Source of the DNA: Helicostylum pulchrum | Taxonomy: Eukaryota > Mucoromycota > Mucoromycetes > Mucorales > Mucoraceae | Assembly (NCBI GenBank): GCA_025677825.1 | Contig: JAIXMO010000071.1 | Coordinates: 58,793 to 122,792 of the forward strand | Length of the DNA: 64,000 nt | Reading direction: 5' to 3' | In this document: piece after piece, positions 1-63,562 of the stretch | How positions within the stretch are numbered: position 1 is the first letter of the stretch | Layout: each line of letters starts with the position of its first letter | Notes under the pieces: model-generated | Database searches by the model: none | Told to the model about the DNA's origin: nothing | Seen by the model: the letters and a program-made list of their open reading frames with translations, nothing else | Made by a program: the position numbers and the translations under genes

Positions 1-1494
1 ATCCCGGTAAGTTTCTCGAAAATATCGGTTTTACATTTATGCATGTATGTTTAAATTATTTGATATAGGTGTTAGGGATTTAATTTGTGGTGTTGATTGC
101 CAAGATTTGGCGCTTACAAACAAATATACTACCCGTCAACATTCTTTCAGTTACAGTAACGCCACATATAAGTAAGCATATAATAAGCCTAAAATTTATG
201 TAATTGAAATCGGACATTAATTTTTTTCTTCTGACAGGCTCCGTTCTGGAATGGACTGGATTAAACAAAAAGAGCTGGTCAGTAGAGCTGTGGAAGGTAT
301 AAAATTGGTTTATGACAGATTGAAAACACGAAAAGTATGTAGCAACGGAGGTATTATGAACTTCTTAAATTCAGCCGCCGCGGAACAGAAAAGGTACAAG
401 TGAAAGATCTTCTTTTTACACAGCATTTATCCTAATATTCATTGTTTTTCTTTATACTTATAGTATTCATGAGTTTATGAAGTCGTACCGACATCGAGAG
501 AATAAGGGGTACGCGTTTTCCAATCGACAAGCGTCACAAGATCATGCTGCTAGAGTAGTAATTGGGACAACACATACAGATGAACCATTCAAACTTTGTC
601 ATACCTCCACTTCCAAACGTCGATACAGAAAAAGACGTTTATATCGCGAAACCATTAAGCAAATTTATTCGCAGCGCCCTTATCCTGCTCGTCCCCTTCC
701 AATCCGTGATTTGGTTCAAGACTCAAGAAGAACGGTAGTGGCGTATGGGGACGCATCTCTCAAAGGAACGTATAAAGGGAACACCCCTGTTCCCGTAAAG
801 ATAAAGAAAAACACGTTATAAAGCGTAGTATATATTTAGTAATTTTGGTTGTATATATAGAGTATACAAAGAGCAATCGCTAACAAAGCTATTGTTATAT
901 CAGTAGACGAATTTCGTACGTCCGTCACCTGCTCACATTGCCTCAGAAGATTAGAGAACGTGTATAACGATACGTTCTTAGAATGTAATCACCGGTAATA
1001 TTTTCTGGCACATTATGAATGTTGAATATCGCACTCAACCCTGTTTAACTTATAGAAAAAAAAACATCGTTATTATGATCAAGACAGCGAGAGTAACGAC
1101 TGCCGAGCGTTTTTAAAATGTCTGGACGAAGATGGTAACATCCTACATAGATCAAGTGCTTGTCCAGAAGGTAAAGTATGCATTCTTGATTATTATAGAA
1201 AATCAATCTTATACTTTTTTAAGCTCAAGAAAAACGTCGCTTGATTTATCCACTGAAGCAATGCAAGGAATGTCCTATGAGTGCAAATACAGACATACAG
1301 GTATTTAACATACATATGTATATAACGTATATTTTTTTAATATGTACCCTTTTTAGTATTGGAACAGGGATGTGAATGCGGCAACCAACATCCGTGAAAT
1401 TCTTTTTCGGTATATCACGCATGGATTCGATTTGAATTCGAGGCAGCCTCAATTGTCTCGTATAAGAGAAATAAACGATGATGACGAAAACTAA
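1..1494 (+). CDS. Fanzor (TnpB-like) RNA-guided nuclease family protein, 5' end outside the window
   Basis: Exons read by hand: 1-6, 69-171, 238-393, 464-794, 861-994, 1056-1170, 1224-1300 and 1357-1494. The product carries the C-terminal half of a TnpB/Fanzor protein. A PGVRDL segment follows what is probably the RuvC-I Asp, whose codon (?AT) is cut by the window edge. Next come YGDASLKGTYKGN, the VDEFRTS segment with the likely catalytic Glu at 909-911, a zinc ribbon of two CxxC pairs (930-941 and 1262-1273), and the RuvC-III motif WNRDVNAATNI with Asp at 1369-1371. Fanzors are eukaryotic relatives of IS605 TnpB that cut DNA with an omega-RNA guide. One flaw: exons 861-994 and 1056-1170 join out of frame by one base at an A9 run at 1056-1064, unless a weaker donor near 960 is used. 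Family assignment is firm; activity is unknown. Confidence 0.88.
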
Positions 1495-1567
1495 GCGTTT
1501 TTAAGTCTGGTTAAAAAAATAATCACATTTTTACTTTAATAAATATCAAATATTTTTATTTTAAACA

Positions 1568-3711
1568 ATGTCAAGTAATAACGCTACATCTATTCATATC
1601 AGTTGTTATACGCCCATTTCAGAGAGACTTACCGTACCTTTGACCAATTGGAAGAAATCCGTAGTAGACTATATTCCCCTACACGGTGTCAGATTTGTGA
1701 AAGGCACAACTAGAACCGCAGAGGGGCAAGAGAGGGCAAAAGCTCAGCGATTAAATACCACCGAAGGTCCCAAGCCCAGAACCCGGTATATTGATTATGT
1801 TTTCAAAACGTATTACTCTTGTCATCGTTCTGGTGAAAAGAGACAAACTAAACCGAGCAAAATAATAGCAGCGAAGGATCTAGAAAATTACAAAAAAAAG
1901 TAAAAAAAATTGAATGTACTGCTAATTTGGTAGCTACCTGTTATAAAAGCGATCCTAATAATGTTGTCTTGCATCACACCGGTAACCATAATCATCAGAT
2001 TGGTGGTCTTGAAGACTTGAAGTTTCTGCCATTGTCGCAAGTAGCTAAACAGTTGATTGAGCAAAGATTACGCGAAGGATTTAGAAAGAGAGACACCAGA
2101 ATTTCAATTCAAAACAATTTTCTTCGTTATAGTCAAGCCAACTTGAATACCGATGTAGAGCAATCTCTTGGTAACGAAGCTCAAGTTATCGTTCACCGTG
2201 ATCAGATGGTTCACTCCACAGAGATTTATAACATCTATAAAAAAATCCAAGAAGCTTTCTACAAAAAAGCAGATGATCAGAAAGAATCTGTTAAACTTTG
2301 GTTGACCAAGTTAAAAGAAAATGAAGGATACAATACTTTTTTGGCAGATAATTTTGATAGCACCTTCTCGTTTGGATTTGTCTCATCATGGCAAAAGGCA
2401 CTCTTGATTGAAAGTGCAAGTGTATGTCCGGATGCCACTCATTGTACCTCTAACATTGATAAAGGGATACTTTACACCATCGTGACCCGTCATCCATGGA
2501 CTGGTACAGGATGTTCTGTAGCATTCTTTTTTACGACTGATCATTCGATGTTACCAGTAAAGCATTTTCTTTACTTCTTGAGATATACCGTTCACTTTTC
2601 GGGCTGGAAAAAGATCACCATCGATATCAGTACCGCCGAAAGAAATGCAATCAATTCTGTCTACCCAGAAGTTGTGATTCAGTGGTGCCTTTTCCACGTC
2701 GCAAGAGCCTGGATGGGTAAGATTCGCGAGTATATCAAGCTTGGAAGTTCAGCAGCTAACGCCTGGGTACATAGAGCAATTATTACCGATTTTAAAAGAA
2801 TGATGTGGGAGAAGGACACCTCTGTTTTTCTGCCAATGCTTAGTTAATTTGTGATTACTTATGCAGCATATCCTGATTTCATCCAGTACTTTAATCGACA
2901 ATACTTGGAGAACGATGCTTTTATGCGCTGGTCTGTCGCCTTTCAGCCTCAAGTTTTTACCAGTATGGAGACCAACAACTATGTTGAGAGCTGGCACAAT
3001 CAGCTTAAAACGACATATTTAAACAGAAAAAGAAATAGACGCGTTGATAGATTGATTTTCATCCTTGTCAGAGATGTACTTCCTGATTACGTTCAAAACG
3101 TAAACAGAATGGTGTTGAATATCGGCAAAATGAGTCCAGAAGAAAGAAGAAGAAGGGCTCGCGAGATGAGTGCAGAAGATGTGAACGTGGCTACTCTTGT
3201 AACAATGATTGAAGAGCTGGAAGAGCAAACTGGATACAAGGTTCGCTCTTTTTCAGATGAGGAAGTGTACTACATCATTCAAGTGGAGCAGGATAGCATA
3301 AAACCTTGTGGTTGTAAGGATTTCCGTTGGAACCGTATCTCTTGCAAGCACATGTACCTTCTCAAACGTTTGCACAGGGATTTAGCTACTTTTGAGCGTG
3401 AGTATAAAAAAAAATATCAGCATTTTTTTTTATTAAAATCTAACCATTATGTATTTTAAGCCGTCGTGTACGATGGAATTAGAATGGCAAGAGCTGAAGA
3501 AACAGCAAACGAGGAACCTGTACTTGAACCTTCTACCGTATTCGATTTTTCTGACTTGATTGCAACATTATCTATGTATCAACACAATCCTCGCAATCTA
3601 AATGAGCAACAGTTAGAAAGTATCAAATCACATGTAGATGAAATTAGTTTGTTACTTCAAAACGATGACAGATTACCTTCAAACATAAATTTACAAACGC
3701 AACATCGATAA
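1568..3711 (+). pseudogene. Mutator-like element (MULE) transposase, with frameshift and stop codon
   Basis: The reading frame shows the MULE layout in order. The N-terminal part has a FAR1/WRKY-GCM1-type zinc finger (a Cys pair, then HNH near 1990-2000). The DDE core has PDATHCTS near 2430, TIDISTAERNAI followed by CLFHVARAW near 2620-2710, and NNYVESWHNQLK near 2975-3010. A SWIM finger (CGCKDF..SCKH) lies near 3310-3350. An intron at 3398-3460 with a GTGAGT donor leads to the last exon. Two lesions are visible: a one-base frame change at the A8 run 1892-1899, and an in-frame TAA at 2845-2847 with the same frame resuming immediately. Cut-and-paste transposition of DNA is the family role. It starts 73 bp after the Fanzor stop, on the same strand. 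It is probably a decayed copy, although the homopolymer shift could be a sequencing error. Confidence 0.85.
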
Positions 3712-3908
3712 AATAATAAAAAAAAAATAGTAATAAAAAAAAGAGGCCATGATTGATATTTAAAAGCCGCTTATCTGTTAGGTAAATAAGGGCGTTCTGC
3801 ATGAAAAAATACGTCACACTTTTTTTTGTCAATAGAACGTGTACCAAAGTTTTTGAATAATTTTTTTTCTTCAATAGATTTTATTTTTATAAAACAGTAT
3901 AATATAAA

Positions 3909-5109
3909 ATGGCAGAAGAAATGTGGTGTACGATTGAAAGCGATCCTGGTAAATCACTATACGGAAAGAGACAAGCCAAAAGTAAAATTGACCTTTTTTT
4001 TATGCAGGTGTTTTCACCGAGTTGATGGCAGGTATGGGTGTTCAAGGTGTTCAAATGGAAGAAATTTATAGTTTAGACGAAGCAACCATGGAAGAATTAA
4101 AGTAATTATTAACTACATCGATTACTTTTTTTAAAAAAGAAAACCAACTAAAAAACAATTTCATGTGTAGACCTATTTATGGTTTAATCTTTTTATTCAA
4201 ATGGCAAAATAAGAAGAATGGACAACCTGCTCCTGAAGTTGATGAAAATTCGAACGTATTCTTTGCTAACCAAGTCATTAACAATGCTTGTGCCACACAA
4301 GCTATTTTGCAAATCTTGTTAAATAGAGACGATATAGAAATTGGACAAGAATTAAGAAACTTTAAAGAATTTACAGCGGATTTTCCTCCTGACGTACGAA
4401 AAAAATATTATATGTTGTATCCATATAGGAAAGACTTAACCATTCTTACTATTTAGATGAAAGGATTAGCTATCTCTAATAGTGAATTGGTCCGCACAGT
4501 GCATAATAGTTTTGCTAGATCAGACCCTTTTGTTAATGAAATTGTTGATCCTAATGCAGGAAAAGACCAAGACGTATACCATTTTATTGCTTATACACCT
4601 ATTCATGGTGCACTTTATGAATTGGATGGATTGAGCCGAGGACCAGTGAATTTAGGTGCATGTGATGATAACAATTGGACTAACCAAGCCAATGAAGCTA
4701 TTCAACGTCGTATGCAGGGATATGGAGATTCTGAATTGCATTTTAGTTTAATGGCTTTAACCAAGGATAAAGTTGAATGCTATCAAGAACAAATTGAGGA
4801 ATTGGATGGCTTACTTTTATCTCTTGGTGAAGATGCTGTAAATGAAAGAAATCAATTAAATAATCAACGTAGTTCGTTACAACACAAGTTACATTTGGAA
4901 CAAGAAAAGAGAGCTAGATGGCATGTAAGTTATACAAATAAAGATGCACTTTTTTTTTTAATACGTGGAATTTAATTGTTTTCATATAGAGAGAAAATGT
5001 ATTGAGAAAGCATAATTTTATACCAATGATTTACAATCTTTTAAAGAAACTCGCTGAAAAGGATCAATTAGTACCACTTGTCGCAAAGGCCAAAGAAAAA
5101 AAGCAATAA
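3909..5109 (+). CDS. uch2: Ubiquitin C-terminal hydrolase of the UCH37/UCHL5 type
   Basis: Five exons (3909-3948, 4008-4101, 4171-4393, 4457-4924, 4990-5109) give 314 residues, the normal length of UCH37. The peptidase C12 core shows the active-site Cys in [10 protein letters not shown], the catalytic His in YHFIAY and the Asp in YELDGL. The C-terminal ULD-type tail ([18 protein letters not shown]) is the segment that in UCH37 binds Rpn13 on the 19S proteasome, where the enzyme trims ubiquitin chains from substrates. The start at 3909 gives [14 protein letters not shown], matching the family N terminus. All splice joins keep frame. Its promoter lies within the 200 bp after the MULE transposase and may overlap the end of that element. 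Confidence 0.95.
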
Positions 5110-5375
5110 TGCACTAAATAAGGAAACTTTTTAAATAAATTAGTCATCGATTTTTGAAGCAACTCATCATCATCTACTTATCTCGTTTTCGAGAAGTGGC
5201 AATTGTTACCATAAACACATTATTAGTCATTGATACCATAGATTCGGTAAAATACGCTAAAAAAAATTTTTGGCTGTGGTTTTTGAAGGGATAGGGTTAA
5301 TGAAAACCCGCTTTGTCTGTTTTAAAATAAAATAAAATAAAAAATGTGTCGTTTTGTTTCTCTTTATTTTATACA

Positions 5376-19865: not shown

Positions 19866-22800
19866 TTATCGCTTTTGTTTTCTGAACAAATAAGTGAGTA
19901 TGATAAACAAAGCTACGTTAAATAAGGTAAAGAGCCAGAGAATACCAAAGTTGCGCCATCTGTTATCAAAAGACCAACCTAATCGAGATTCGTAATAGTC
20001 GTTACCAGTTGTGTATTGACAGTAATCACATAAGTCCGTACTATTAGGATTTCCAATATATCCAAGACCACCATCCGCAAAGAATTCAGCCATATAATCG
20101 CCACAGTTTCGTCCTAATGGCGCTTTAATCTTGATGAAATCACTTTCACCACAAATAACTTTGACACCATCCAAAGCATTGGTAATCAAACCTTCGACAA
20201 TATAATGGTATGGATTCAAGCTATACATCCAAGAGCTCCAAAAACTAGGCATTGCTGCAGGAGGCTGGAAAATACCAGCGAACAAGATAAGAATAGTAAT
20301 GAAGAAAGGGTTAAGTACACCGGCCATTGTAGCGGAATCACAAATAGCAGCAATAGCAAGACCAAGACTAATGGAATGGAACAAGTAAACAACGAACAGA
20401 ACAAAAAAGTATCCAACGCGAGCAGACTCATTTTGTAAACCAGTGGCCCAGTAGTAAAAGAACATGAATAAAGCAGAGTTGGCAATAAGATATGGAATTT
20501 CTACCAGCATACAAGAGAGCGCAAATGAAGACCAACCATAGTATTTACTAGCATACTCACGACGGAACCAAAGTCTTTCTTGCAAGTAACGAGGTTGAAT
20601 CAAGATAATCATTGTGTTTCCCATGAATAGCGTTGTTAAAAGACCAAACATACGATTTTGCATATCGGTGGGTGTATTTCCAACCTTCCAGAAAGTGAAA
20701 CCAGTAATCAAACCAATAAAGCAAACGTTGAATGCACGACCCATATTGTAAGAAGGAGTACGCCACCAAGAGATATTCATACGCTTGTAAACAAGAACTA
20801 ATTGTTGCCAGAAAGGTTGTGAATACATTTTAACCTCACGCTTGACTTCATGATCCATATAAAGATCGATATCTTCTAATTCACGTTCTAATGCAGCGGC
20901 TTGAGTAGATTTGGCCCAAACTTCAGCCCAGTCTTTAGTAGATTTACTCGTAGTACCAGCTCCTACACATTCCAAGATATATTCAGCAGGGTTTACCTCA
21001 GGAGCACATTTAGGACCGCCGTGTGATTCAAAGTAGTCAAGCATAATACGAGAGTCTTCTCCAATTTCGCCAAAATAAGCAGTTTTTCCACCACGCATAA
21101 GTAAAAGAAGATGGTCAAAATGCTCAAAGAGTGTAGCAGAAGGTTGATGAATAGTACAAAGAACAGGCCAACCGGCATCAGCAAGTTTGCGAATAAATCG
21201 AACAATGTTAAACGAACTTTGAGCATCAAGACCAGAGGTAGGTTCGTCCAAGAAAAGCAATTTTGGTTTACCAACGAGTTCAGTAGCAATAGTAAGACGC
21301 TTACGTTCTTCAACAGATATACCGACACCTTCTTCAAGATCGCCAATAAGTGCACCACCGATTTTTTCCATTTCCATAAGTTCAAGAATATGTTCAACAT
21401 AAGCATCTTTTTCTTCTTTGGGAACATCAGCAGGTTGACGAAGGTAAGCAGAGAATTGAAGAGCTTCACGGACAGTTGCATTAGGGTTGTGTACATCCAT
21501 TTGTTCGCAGTATCCAGTAGTACGCTCAAAATCATCAGCCAAGTATTCACCGTTCATGTAGATATTACCACCAATGGTTCCGATGGTTTTTCTTCTAGCC
21601 AAGACATCAAGTAATGTAGTTTTACCAGCACCAGAAGATCCCATTAGTGCAGTGAGATTACCTGGTTTGACTATACCTGAAACATTATTCAAAAGTTGAC
21701 GACTGCCACCTTTAACAGGAACGGTATAATCAGTATGATGCCACGAGAAAGTAGTACCGTCAGTTACAGATTCCATCTCTTGAACTTGAACAGCCTCAGT
21801 TTGCTCCAAAAGTTTTTCATCCGAGACAATATCAGGCGAGAAACCCTTTTCATAAACTTTTGTAATCGTTCCTTCTTTTCTAAGAGAGACGTATTCCATA
21901 GCAAGAGCAGTAAGAGCTGTAAATAAAACAAACAAGAGTACAACAGCAAGAAAATTAATCCAGCGCATTGACGTATGGAAACCATAGTAGTAGCTCAAGT
22001 AGTCATCGCCAAGAACGTAACTATCACCGGGTGCGGCACCAGGAAGAATACAAGAACGATACGCCTGTTCGGTATAGCTAGGACCATAAGGAACACCATT
22101 TATACCCTCACAACTGAATTTTAGACCGGCCATTTCGGAAGACATGACTGCGTTGTAACTATAGGCCAAAGGATTGATCCAAAAAATCCAAACAAACCAA
22201 GGATGCATATTGGGATAAGGTATTTGATAACCAATGTAAATCAAAAAAGCGACAAAGAAAATACTCGAGATTTGAGAGGCGGTATAAAAGTTGGGACTGA
22301 CGGAACCCCAGAAACGGAAGAAACTGTTCATACACAAAATAATCATTACAAATACAATAAAGAAGAAGAAAAACTATTAAAAAGAAAGAATTAGTAAAAA
22401 GAAAAAATAAAAAAAATATAATAATTTACCTTTCCAGCATCATTTTCAAGACCAACGATAAAATAAACAGATATTTCAAATATAATTGCTTGGAAAATAG
22501 CAAGTGGGATATCAATAATCACTTGAGAGATATAAAAGGCAGAAGGATAGTACATGGCGAAATGCTTATGTTTCTCTAGGACACGACGACCTTCCATAAA
22601 TGCGGGGAGTTCAGACTGAGCAACAAAGGAATTAAAGAACAAGAACAAGATAAATACACCAGCACGAGAAAAGGCACCAATGCCATCAAGAGGCATCATA
22701 AAGAACACAGAAGCAGCAACAAGACCTTTAACAACAACATCGCCATAACGAATAGCAAGAGAAGTCTTATCGCCCCAAATAAGTTGAAACTGACGAGCAG

Positions 22801-24256
22801 TTAATGCCTTGACCTGATCAAAGTAATTGAGAACAAAAGGAGTATTATGAGCTTGTACGAAGGCTTCTTTAAATGATAATGATGGCTTATCAATATTAAT
22901 TTGCTTTTCGTATTCATCTCTTTCGCTAATCATTTTAGAGTACATTGCGGACTCTTCGTAGACCTTTTCGAATTGAGCAGAGTTAACTGGGACTTGGCCT
23001 TTGAAATCACTATTGACTTCGCGTTCATTCAAGTTACAGAGACCGGTAAGGAAATCAGGAGTTGACTTGCGAGAAGAACAGTGGAAACCCATATCAGTAA
23101 AATAATTTTTAGCTTCAGTGGTAGGACCAAAGTATATGCAGCGACCTTCATCAAGAACCATAACCTTATCGAACAGATCAAAAATACTATCGGAGGCTTG
23201 ATACAATGTAGAGATGGTTGTTTTCTTCATAATATCCGTCATAATACGGAGGGAACGGACGTAATCCAAAGCAGAAGAAGCATCCAGGCCTCGAGTAGCA
23301 CAATCCCAACAGTTAATTGAACTATGTGTTGTCATCTGTTCAGCAATTGATAAACGCTTGCGTTCACCACCAGAGAGACCGCGAACAAATGCGTTTCCGA
23401 CCATAGTATTCATTTGCTTTGTCAAACCGAGCATATTACCGAGCATGTAAATAATTTTATCCATAAATTCTATTTTGGATTCGCCAGGAATACGAGTGGA
23501 AGGAGTTTTGTTCTTGAGAGCAAAACGAAGTGTTTGTTGGGTAGTTAAAGTTGGGTAATGAAGATCTTCTTCTTCATTATAGCATACTTCGCCCTTGAAG
23601 TATTTTCCAAATTCTTTTGCGTCTATGCCACCATAACTAACTTCGCCATCGATTTGAGTATAAGAAGCACGCATATTTGCAAGCACACGAAGCAAAGTAG
23701 AACAACCGGCACCAGGGCGGCCAAGAACTAACAACATTTCACCTGATTTACAGAAACCATTATTGTCTCTAAGAATCGTAAAATCGGTTCCCTTGTGTCC
23801 TCTCCATTTCCAAAATTGTAACAAACCGGTGATGATAGACCAATTAGTAGAGATAGATCTTGCATCAGCACCTAAGCCTTGAACTTTGAGATCCTTCCAG
23901 ATGACACCCATGTTTTTTGGCTTTAAACCAGCAGAAGTAAGTTGTGAATCTTCATTCGAAAGGAAATCAGTCAAATCAAATTCTTGGTTACTAGTACCCT
24001 TTTCCAAATCATTGTGAGTAGATTCTTTTCGCGATTGTCGAGTTAGTTCACGTTCAATTGATCTGTATTCTTCAAGAGCGCTTTCGATATCTACAGCGTT
24101 ACCATTTTCTTCGCCGAATGCGCCAACGGTAGGTCTATGGGATTGAGTAGTATAAGTGCCATCGCCGATTATAGTATCAGCTCCATCAACACTCGAACGA
24201 GCATAATTTTCTTTAGCATCGATTTGGTTTGGATAGTATACAGGCTTCGAATCCAT
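19866..24256 (-). CDS. Full-length PDR-type ABC transporter (pleiotropic drug resistance)
   Basis: Two exons (22430-24256 and 19866-22373) join in phase 0 to give 1,444 residues. The intron has a TACTAAT branch point and an AATAG end. The order is NBD1-TMD1-NBD2-TMD2, typical of the fungal PDR/CDR subfamily. NBD1 has the atypical Walker A GRPGAGCSTLL, the signature VRGLSGGERKR and a Walker B WDCATRGLD where Glu is replaced, as usual in PDR pumps (Cys sits where Asn is common). NBD2 has canonical GSSGAGKTTLLD and LLFLDEPTSGLD but a degenerate signature, VGISVEERKRL. Such pumps sit in the plasma membrane and export hydrophobic drugs, sterols or lipids. Start chosen at MDSKPVYYP; an ATG 18 bases upstream is possible. 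Confidence 0.95.
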
Positions 24257-25963
24257 TATTCTTTTTTTTATCAAGTTTATTTACAAAAAAAAACAATGGG
24301 AATTAAAGTTTAGGTATACAAATAATTAAGATATAAATAATTAAAACTGTTCCTTTTTTTTTATAACGGTTCTTTTTATATGTTTTTTTTTGTTTGGATC
24401 CAGAAGCTTGATTTTGATGTAACATAAGGAAAAAGTGACAGTTAAAAGTCGCTTTCATTAATAATAGGGCCGATCAGCGTCTGTTTTTTAAGGTTAATTT
24501 TTTTTAATGGTCGGAATTTACACACCCGAAAGTTTAATTGTTATCGCATCATTTTTCTTACATTCGTGTACGTTCAGCTTATCCTTGTATAAGAATTAAT
24601 TTTTCCGTTATTTCTTTTATCATTGATACAATATTTATGGTAGTGTTAATTATGTACCCAAATAAGGTAAAATTTACGTGCATCTATGCAGTCGCAATCT
24701 GTGAATAACTTGAAACGCTCAAGATTCTGTGAATCCAGAAAAGGAGTGACTTGTTTTATTAGTAATGGTAAACGGAATTTACCACCCAACGTCATTATCG
24801 TTTTAGGGAATTCTATTTTCAGTTTCTTATCTACAAAAACTTTCGTATTATTAATTATTTTACATCTCGTTTGGATTTATAACTGAAAAGAGGGGAACGT
24901 GATAGAATGATTCAATCAAAAATAAACATTTCAGGGACGATTTTATTACTGAGTGCTTTCTTTTCATACACATAAAAAGAGTAAAAATGACGGCATGTAT
25001 GTGATAAAAGTATATGAAAAAGTGTCAGTTTTGTAGCCCTCAAGCTTGACTAAAGTACATTTGATTTGTCTTATAAGGGGCTATAAAAAAACATAGCTAG
25101 CAAAGACAAGAAAACGGCAATACCATTCGATTAATAATTATTCTGAACTGTACACTTAACAGTTTGACTTTTAAAAATTAAAATCACAGCCGCATAAGAA
25201 CAAAAACAAAAACGTACCATAGTGTCGTAACCATGATTTTCAATTTATTTGTGTCGGACGAGACCGACGAAATAATAGGGAATCATGTCCCGTCTTGCAA
25301 AACAAACATCTCCTTTTTATTTCAAGTCTTAACAATGTTTGATTGATCTACTTCTTTCGATTTTTTTTTTCTACTGTATTAAAAAAACCCTGCTTTTCAT
25401 TCAATTCTTAAAAATGATTAATTCGAGTGTTTTTTTTTTCTCCATACAAATGTATAAAAAAGATCAAATAATGTGACACAAAGTGTGACACAAAGTGTGA
25501 GAAATGGTCTCATAAATTACTAGGTAACTATATAAATTTTGAAGGGCTTAGAGTGGAAACCAAGGTAATCTGAAGAAACTCTAGATTTTTAAAGTACTTG
25601 AATGATTGATTACTCATAACATTTGACATTATGTATGAAAACTTTAACCTCCAAATTTTAATAAGGTAACGAAAGAAAGTTCGCCCTATAATGATCAGCC
25701 TCAAAATTGTTTCGGATAAACGAGTGGTGCTGGTACAAAATATACTCTTACCAAATAAAGCACATTTGGTTTAATTTTAAGGTTTATGCATCATTAACAT
25801 TTTCTAACTTGTCCGTAAAGACTATTTTTTTTTGACATAACGGGAGCATAGAAAATATTTTGCGTTCCATGCACGTTTAGAAAATAAAGTTACAAGTATA
25901 AATAAATAAAAAGAGATGTATTTATTTAAGAATAAAAAGTGTTCTGTCTATTTTTGATACTAT
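24257..25963. other. 1.7-kb gap, ABC transporter promoter side
   Basis: No gene is seen. The right end of the ABC gene's promoter region contains a T-rich/A-rich tract (24340-24400) and a BamHI/HindIII-like ggatccagaagctt patch. A short direct repeat of cacaaagtgtga occurs twice in tandem at about 25477-25501. Open frames here are short and low-complexity. Confidence 0.45.
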
Positions 25964-61765: not shown

Positions 61766-63562
61766 TTAAAGCAAAACATTGTTGAACAACAAGTGAACAA
61801 TAGATTTACAATGAATATAAACATAACCGTAATGTAAATCATTCTCCCAATACTTTGGTTGTCTATAAGTACCGCGTATAATATGTTGCTCCAACTTGTC
61901 CCAGTCTGTTTCTTTCATTGCATAGTATTTGACTCGTTTTGATTGGTTAGCATTTAATCGCCTTAATTGACGTCTGTTACTACGTCCTTGACATAAATGA
62001 TACCACCTACTTGTGTTTTCTTTTCTTTTTACTACAAGAAAAGCTGCATCAATACTACTCTTTTCTATATACTGATTTAATCCAAGATATATGCCTTCTA
62101 TCACTAGTGCTTGTAGCGACTGTATTGGTAAATAAATATCTATTCTTTGATCTAATTCGTCTCTATCCTTGACACACTTGATTAGTTCCAATACTTTTAA
62201 ATTAGGACTCCAAGTTGACAATACATTGATTGACTTTGTTGTAAAATGCACGTGTTTTAATACAATACATTCAATATCAGATCCTTCTTTTATTATTGCC
62301 TTTTCATTCTTTATGGTCAAACGAGCCCTAGTTAATTTTAATGTCTTGAGTTGTTGACAGCAGTTTAAAATAGTATCAATATCACACCCATAACTCCAAG
62401 TGTACGCGTTCTCACCACAGTTCAATTCCAGTTCCTTCAGCTGCTCAAAATTCGAAAGGGGTTTCATTACTTGGTTTACGTCATGCAAGTTTCTCCACAG
62501 TTGTAATCGTAAAGTATCCATCTTCTTCATATCACAGCATTGTAAAATTGATTTAAATAACAATTCCAAGTTGATAAATGAACTCCTTATCGTACCATCC
62601 ACAGATACAGGTAATCCTTGTATATGCTGGTAAAAGCATATGTACGTATCTCTACTAACAGAATCTAGTGGTACAATGCGAACTCTTTTCAGTGACCGAC
62701 ATTGGCTGGCAATTAGAATTAGACCATTTTTGACTCCTTCAAATTGACGTGGTGTAGAATTGACAGGGTACCAGCTTTGATTTAACTCTAGAGTATGTAA
62801 CTCAGGGTATAGTTGTGCGATCACTTCTAACCATGAGTCATGCGTGAATGTATCTTGTACGATTAATGTACGAATAGAAGGAAACTGATGCTGAAGTGGA
62901 AAGTCTTCATTAGATTGTATAGAAATTACGAAATCCAGTAGCTTTAACTCTTGTAGCATAGGTAAACTATTATGTAGTTTCAAAATATCTTTTAGTGTAA
63001 ACCTACTCTGTTCATAACTAGCAATAGTGTTAGCCGTTGACTTGTCTCTGCCATACAAGCAAAGACTCTGCAAATGAGGCGTCGATGCAAGTAACACGGG
63101 TAATGATTTAAGCATGCGATGCATTGTATCAGCGCACAGTAGTGTCAGGTCTGTCAATGAACTACCATGCGTGTAAATCAAGTCTAGACTATAGCAGTTT
63201 AAAGCAGGTAGTTTTGTGATCCTTTCGTATTTCATTTTACTGTGCGCTAGATACTTCCAGAGCTTTGGGTTAAAGCTCAAGGACTCTAATAAAGGACAAT
63301 GAGCTGCTAACTGCTCGAATTCTTGTTTTGTGAAACCAATATGACACTCAAAATCCACATGTTTAACAAGCTTAGCGAGATTGACATTCAAGTGCATGAT
63401 GGTAGTATGAAATTGCTTCCATTGCTTTCTACTTGTAATGTGTACATGAGAGTATAGGCAAGGTTGAAAAGTCGCAAGCCAGTTGTGAGATACTTTGATA
63501 TATTCATAATAGTTCTCGGCATAACTACCAATTATATTTAAAATTTCATACGGTAAAAACAT
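61766..63562 (-). CDS. F-box/leucine-rich-repeat-like protein
   Basis: A single 598-residue exon. The N terminus (MFLPYEILNIIGSY ... VSHNWLATFQPCLYSHV) matches a degenerate F-box, the Skp1-binding part of SCF ubiquitin ligases. The remainder has many irregular leucine-rich repeats (LTDLTLLCADTMH, LQELKLLDFV, LHTLELNQSWYP, LKTLKLTRARL) expected to bind a substrate. The C terminus has a basic SNRRQLRRLNANQSKRVK stretch. Such proteins are numerous and fast-evolving in Mucorales-like fungi, so no orthologue can be named. Confidence 0.8.
   Translation of the reverse strand: MFLPYEILNIIGSYAENYYEYIKVSHNWLATFQPCLYSHVHITSRKQWKQFHTTIMHLNVNLAKLVKHVDFECHIGFTKQEFEQLAAHCPLLESLSFNPKLWKYLAHSKMKYERITKLPALNCYSLDLIYTHGSSLTDLTLLCADTMHRMLKSLPVLLASTPHLQSLCLYGRDKSTANTIASYEQSRFTLKDILKLHNSLPMLQELKLLDFVISIQSNEDFPLQHQFPSIRTLIVQDTFTHDSWLEVIAQLYPELHTLELNQSWYPVNSTPRQFEGVKNGLILIASQCRSLKRVRIVPLDSVSRDTYICFYQHIQGLPVSVDGTIRSSFINLELLFKSILQCCDMKKMDTLRLQLWRNLHDVNQVMKPLSNFEQLKELELNCGENAYTWSYGCDIDTILNCCQQLKTLKLTRARLTIKNEKAIIKEGSDIECIVLKHVHFTTKSINVLSTWSPNLKVLELIKCVKDRDELDQRIDIYLPIQSLQALVIEGIYLGLNQYIEKSSIDAAFLVVKRKENTSRWYHLCQGRSNRRQLRRLNANQSKRVKYYAMKETDWDKLEQHIIRGTYRQPKYWENDLHYGYVYIHCKSIVHLLFNNVLL

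Follow-up and report, generated by a model that had tools for sequence, protein, structure and literature searches.

The closest described systems are the fungal MuDr-type Fanzor1 elements of Bao & Jurka (2013), which, as found in that survey, do not encode a MuDR transposase (PMC3627910). The transposase partners of eukaryotic Fanzors are unsettled, and the 2023 Nature paper reports none within the Spu-1 repeats (PMC10432273). The TnpB/Fanzor1 model supposes that a guide RNA stems from an element end and that the nuclease cuts the emptied site (PMC10711439, PMC10432273). Here, we report a Fanzor1 paired with a MULE transposase gene in one transposon, seen in a dead copy. This pairing appears to be new: no report of a Fanzor and a MULE transposase in one element was found among the papers listed in a literature search that was short on subscription papers.

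The locus lies at the left edge of a 64,000-nucleotide stretch of Helicostylum pulchrum DNA (hereafter the window), i.e. C138:58793-122792 of the 32.2-Mb assembly G000 (168 contigs). Positions to the left of the window are mostly given in the numbering of L009 (C138:52793-60792), which starts at C138:52793. The feature very probably represents the right-hand portion of a MULE transposon of 8 kb, now decayed, whose ancestor had a Fanzor1 and a MULE gene with the same orientation, both enclosed by a single pair of inverted repeats. Like the elements of Bao & Jurka, it associates a Fanzor1 of Mucorales with MuDr-like inverted repeats; theirs have 9-bp target-site duplications and no MuDR transposase, whereas here a MULE gene is present and 8-bp duplications occur in two sister elements, the comparison being by description only (PMC3627910). 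Similarly, the Spu-1 repeats are reported to flank no transposase, whereas the C138 element encodes a MULE transposase (PMC10432273).

By its active-site motifs and its relatives, the gene at the left edge of the window is a Fanzor1, as the original prediction of a TnpB/Fanzor protein had it, and its product would presumably be RNA-guided. That prediction expected the RuvC-I Asp in a codon cut by the window edge and reading GAT; the base at C138:58792, read from the left flank, is G, so the catalytic codon (window 0-2, plus strand) is GAT and the frame across the edge is ENDRIIGID/PG, continuing IIGID/PGVRD (the stroke marks the edge). The other predicted motifs were found as well: VDEFRTS at window ~903-923 holds the likely catalytic Glu (~909-911, plus strand) six residues before the first CxxC, both zinc-ribbon pairs are present (CSHC and CKEC), and the WNRD motif with the RuvC-III Asp lies in the last exon (1357-1494, plus strand), whose reading frame runs from YWNRDVNAATNI, starting at 1357, to the stop. 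In a spliced reading with X at the lesions, the gene fits the Fanzor pattern of Bao & Jurka, D-X(125,275)-[TS][TS]xx-C4-X(5,50)-RD (PMC3627910). It also has both DPG at RuvC-I and a Glu with that spacing from the first CxxC pair, which together form the Fanzor criterion in a further paper (PMC10711439).

Profile searches, by which the original prediction was to be checked, bore it out only in part. The Pfam TNB match (PF07282) reached only E 1e-4 and stayed below the curated cut-off (22.1 and 22.8 bits against 26.3; E 1.7e-4 for the single exon 861-994 and 1.1e-4 for a spliced piece); the domain is interrupted by introns. A PF07282 score over the cut-off is no defining feature of Fanzors in the papers used (PMC3627910, PMC10711439). 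The window protein alone had no match at E<=1 among solved structures. A profile built from ten Mucorales relatives ranked the solved Fanzor of Spizellomyces punctatus (SpuFz1, PDB 8gkh) first, at E 1.2e-6, with an alignment over the RuvC and zinc-finger segments that takes in DP(G/N), the DEFRTS-like segment and YWNRD; the helical N-terminal stretch of the window Fanzor, unlike these segments, does not align to SpuFz1. The other 20 of the 21 profile matches listed were at E 0.065 or worse, all in that helical N-terminal part.

Ten relatives were retrieved at E<=0.001, and a Thamnidium protein is a further one. The Helicostylum models P0001 and P0002 share 98% and 97% identity with the window Fanzor over the aligned parts, and the Mucor circinelloides protein P0003 (985 aa) shares 48% over 99% of the query, with the same active-site layout (DPG, displaced Glu, C4 and RD all kept) and a model that starts later. 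P0004, P0006 and P0008, as annotated, are without some of these motifs. The description of the gene as unannotated was only partly right, since the annotation of Helicostylum pulchrum lists close relatives under the label hypothetical protein. Its intron-rich fungal setting was supported, with at least 13 exons and relatives in Mucorales.

The gene starts at C138:56290 (L009 3498), outside the window, and its 3' part occupies window 1-1494 on the plus strand, with exons at 1-6, 69-171, 238-393, 464-800, 861-994 (VDEFRTS and the first CxxC pair), 1056-1170, 1224-1300 and 1357-1494, delimited by GT..AG ends save where these were lost. Solely through the Helicostylum models was it possible to recognise the exon at L009 ~5091-5213 and, for a further exon, its correct start. 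Near the N-terminus, between two conserved blocks, a stretch of ~280 residues is predicted to form long helices, within a whole model that is poor: the mean pLDDT was 36.3 for P0003 alone and 49.7 with a 14-row alignment (pTM 0.32), too poor for testing the fold. In the 14-row model, 16 of 29 ten-residue blocks of the helical N-terminal ~289 residues reached at least 70, and this is the sole part used. Bao & Jurka describe Fanzor N-terminal regions as highly variable (PMC3627910).

The window copy is a pseudogene. The original prediction spoke of a complete active-site block and of spliced exons giving one protein; the copy is broken at several places by stops, a lost donor and frameshifts, and no single open frame joins the exons in C138, which counts against a working gene and not against Fanzor identity. 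The intron at window 801-860 (plus strand) has AT at 801-802 where three of three other copies have GT, and the exon at 1056-1170 (plus strand) is out of frame with the preceding one at an A-run, as in three of the four copies; this shared homopolymer frameshift at 1056 is possibly assembly noise. Upstream of the window, two in-frame TAG codons (L009 4697 and 5583) and a T-run frameshift near L009 5150 were found, so that the C138 copy lacks the intact open frame of a working Fanzor. The TAG at L009 5583 was also considered as a splice acceptor and rejected, since a very short intron would be required and relatives are in frame there.

It is extremely improbable that the gene works, with stops spliced out or due to assembly errors and the complete nuclease made. 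GT..AG is retained at most exon ends, the homopolymer frameshifts could be assembly noise, and sense residues stand at both TAG sites in P0002 and at the second in P0001, two near-identical Helicostylum models. Nevertheless, both TAGs, like the loss of the donor, result from substitution and from no homopolymer change, the second TAG sits in an exon conserved among relatives, and the adjoining transposase gene is broken as well. Moreover, every one of the four type-B copies compared (C138, C108, C32 and C115) has at least one stop or frameshift within its Fanzor gene, exon sites are no less variable among copies (98/3252) than intron sites (15/705), and in the exon blocks tested 25 synonymous changes stand against 59 nonsynonymous ones, of which 6 produce stops (pN/pS 0.63). 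RIP-like mutation was rejected as the source of the stops: the 123 copy-private substitutions include 49 C>T/G>A and 42 A>G/T>C, without strong sequence context.

We regard the broken Fanzor as one of two genes of a larger element; the original prediction was silent on both the transposon and its transposase gene. Boundaries were set by comparison of C138 with C108 and C32, which gave an element of 7,990 bp (C138:54600-62589, plus strand) that begins 4,193 bp before the left edge of the window and whose right-hand part is window 1-3797. It ends in 28-bp terminal inverted repeats at C138:54600-54627 (GAACCTCCTTATTTACCAAACAGTTAAG) and 62562-62589, equal at 24 of 28 positions; the right one is GAACGCCCTTATTTACCTAACAGATAAG read inward (window 3770-3797, minus strand). 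The second gene is a MULE/SWIM transposase pseudogene at window 1568-3711, which starts 73 bp past the Fanzor stop on the same (plus) strand and carries the MULE transposase domain PF10551 at 30.8 bits against a cut-off of 27.6. It has 36 relatives at E<=0.001, all named ones being from Mucorales genera; FAR1 and SWIM were below cut-off in the relative P0011. The segments VCPDATH, TIDIST and NNYVESWH are those we take to hold its D, D and E. With a frameshift near window 1852 and an in-frame TAA at 2845-2847 in this gene, neither of the two C138 genes can work as written. The element is flanked by ordinary fungal genes, i.e. a Ras-family GTPase gene on its left and a ubiquitin hydrolase gene beginning ~110 bp to its right; a PDR/CDR-type ABC transporter gene, likewise ordinary, lies farther off at window 19866-24280 on the minus strand (Pfam span 19866-22373).

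MULE target-site duplications are ~8-11 bp long. Among the six elements with both ends read, a perfect 8-bp duplication was found in C87 (ATTTAGTT) and C139 (CCCATCTT), the C108 ends show a low-complexity 7-base match, and none was found at C138, C32 and C94. The missing duplication at C138 is one of the points that would fit a Fanzor element and an independent MULE lying adjacent by chance; others are that sister elements hold only an N-terminal MULE piece, inverted, and that the Fanzor1 elements of Bao & Jurka are without a transposase gene (PMC3627910). We consider such a chance neighbourhood very improbable, given the mere 73 bp between the genes and the single repeat pair that encloses both. 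Furthermore, the order Fanzor then MULE recurs at five loci (C138, C108, C32, C115 and C94:30.9-34.2k), although both inverted repeats were seen at only C138, C108 and C32 among them. In addition, a 2.7-kb element at C94:129968-132653 matches the left 295 bp of the element and then L009 7411-9797; it seems to have arisen by internal deletion, with the final 84 bp of the Fanzor retained beside the MULE gene, and it spans the Fanzor-MULE joint. In its two longest stretches, the MULE copy at C94:32037-34182 is 99.6% and 100% identical to Helicostylum pulchrum P0011, and in a third stretch 87%.

The five loci are not all independent at their right ends. Apart from gaps, the last 3.5 kb of C115 equal C138, the contig stopping there, and the tail of C32 enters the ubiquitin-hydrolase flank of C138 through a different short joint. 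These contig ends (C32:16160-16679 and C115:~202300-206379), which enter the same flank as C138, are probably assembly artefacts, and the right ends of C32 and C115 therefore provide no independent evidence. Taken together with the missing duplication at C138, the shared flank also implies that the left and right flanks of C138 may have been wrongly paired in the assembly.

The two-gene MULE element belongs with a group of sister elements, termed MULE-N (C87, C139, C166, C116 and C83), whose ends and left arm are related to its own; in C166 and C116 the far element end falls beyond the contig. The sisters differ in their Fanzor, ~50% identical to that of the window (50-51% over a 160-aa piece in C87, C139, C166 and C116), and in holding only an N-terminal MULE piece of ~250 aa in the opposite direction. 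The left arm of C138 is 95.9% identical to that of C139 (1306 columns) and 94.1% to that of C87 (1192 columns), whereas C108 and C32 match it at 86.9-87.0% along its full length, the difference from the latter two being concentrated at L009 2000-2400. As the arm is closer to those of C139 and C87 than to those of C108 and C32, left arms have been swapped between elements bearing different Fanzors.

An ACGTCA motif stands in the flank of C138 at window 3811-3816 (plus strand), 13 nt outside the right end. Exact ACGTCA/TGACGT (i.e. TGACGTCA-like) occurs within 30 bp outside 10 of 19 right ends, at distances of 11-17 nt, and outside 0 of 13 left ends, the chance rate being 0.0074 per 30-mer (20,000 draws from the window). 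C166, one of the ten motif-bearing right ends, sits within the left end of another element, and C138 and C115 probably represent a single locus. The 14-base right end has 18 exact copies in the genome, a set that overlaps the 19 above; ACGT lies 12-15 nt outside in nine of them, in all nine at exactly 13. With a related motif pattern 8 matches were obtained, and with its reversed control 1. The two 8-bp duplications (C87 and C139) place the motif outside the element. Among the literature matches listed, nothing relevant on MULE target preference together with a TGACGTCA-like motif was found.

TGACGTCA occurs also within the element's own left end, and in C166 another element adjoins at 13 nt from this left-end copy. 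Solo left-end fragments of 77-83 bp, 97-99% identical, were observed at C57:192827, C123:75369, C125:394702, C93:347543, C102:97616 and C166:49965. Those of C125 and C102 stop at the C166 abutment point, those of C123 and C93 one base later and that of C57 six later. C166 is the sole one of these places with a right end found close by that fits the repeat pattern. Tiny elements or excision scars were considered for these 77-bp ends and set aside, being supported by neither duplication nor motif.

Taken jointly, these features allow the tentative reading of a two-gene eukaryotic OMEGA transposon, in which MULE transposase and Fanzor1 would be encoded and moved together. Its transposase would place all insertions in the same orientation and exactly 13 bp from a CRE-type TGACGTCA site, its Fanzor would be exchanged between chassis like a cassette and restore the element at emptied sites via a flank-copied guide, and the insertion point cognate to the left-end TGACGTCA would be position 77, as suggested by the C166 abutment and the solo-end stops. 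By analogy with TnpB and Fanzor1, the MULE transposase of a living element would probably excise it and re-insert it near TGACGTCA-like sites; a guide RNA that starts within an element end and extends into the flanking DNA would direct the Fanzor, which would cut the emptied site, and repair would copy the element back. The first 77 bp of the element are very conserved and have a modest predicted folding (-11.5 and -10.1 kcal/mol, values that stand without a shuffled control). We make no claim for a left-end guide RNA there, since elements with different Fanzors share the left arm.

It is possible, if doubtful, that the Fanzor was passenger cargo without a role in transposition, or was not RNA-guided in this lineage, an alternative that concerns the mechanism only and is compatible with the two-gene MULE element. 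All four compared Fanzor copies are broken, their variation is near-neutral, and no guide RNA was seen with Rfam at gathering thresholds in L009 and L010, which would agree with a passenger. The retention of DPG, displaced Glu, C4 and RD in Mucor P0003 at 48% identity, which suggests long selection, and the presence of two diverged Fanzor genes on related chassis argue for a role. The dead state of these copies and the lack of a guide RNA match in the two stretches reduce the significance of the pairing. With both genes encoded by one MULE element, the cut-and-restore idea can be put to the test in a DDE transposon, and the fixed-distance motif and the Fanzor exchange on a common arm are specific features open to checking.

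Elsewhere in the genome, PF07282 gave 18 matches, 17 of them over cut-off, which points to several Fanzor loci; the window gene is missing from this set, its domain being divided by introns. One further Fanzor, at C130:58418-61911, is 66% identical to the Mucor protein in its best stretch. A second Fanzor-MULE pair was considered at C90:286-300k, where inverted repeats were sought within each 7-kb half only, and was not accepted: the Fanzor-like frame (C90:289122-294553, with TIDPGR) seems to be broken up by a MULE that belongs to a different group and lies on the opposite strand (C90:290568-291959). Finally, rearranged Fanzor pieces on both strands were observed at C154:44644-49075, less than a few kb from a PF10551 match.
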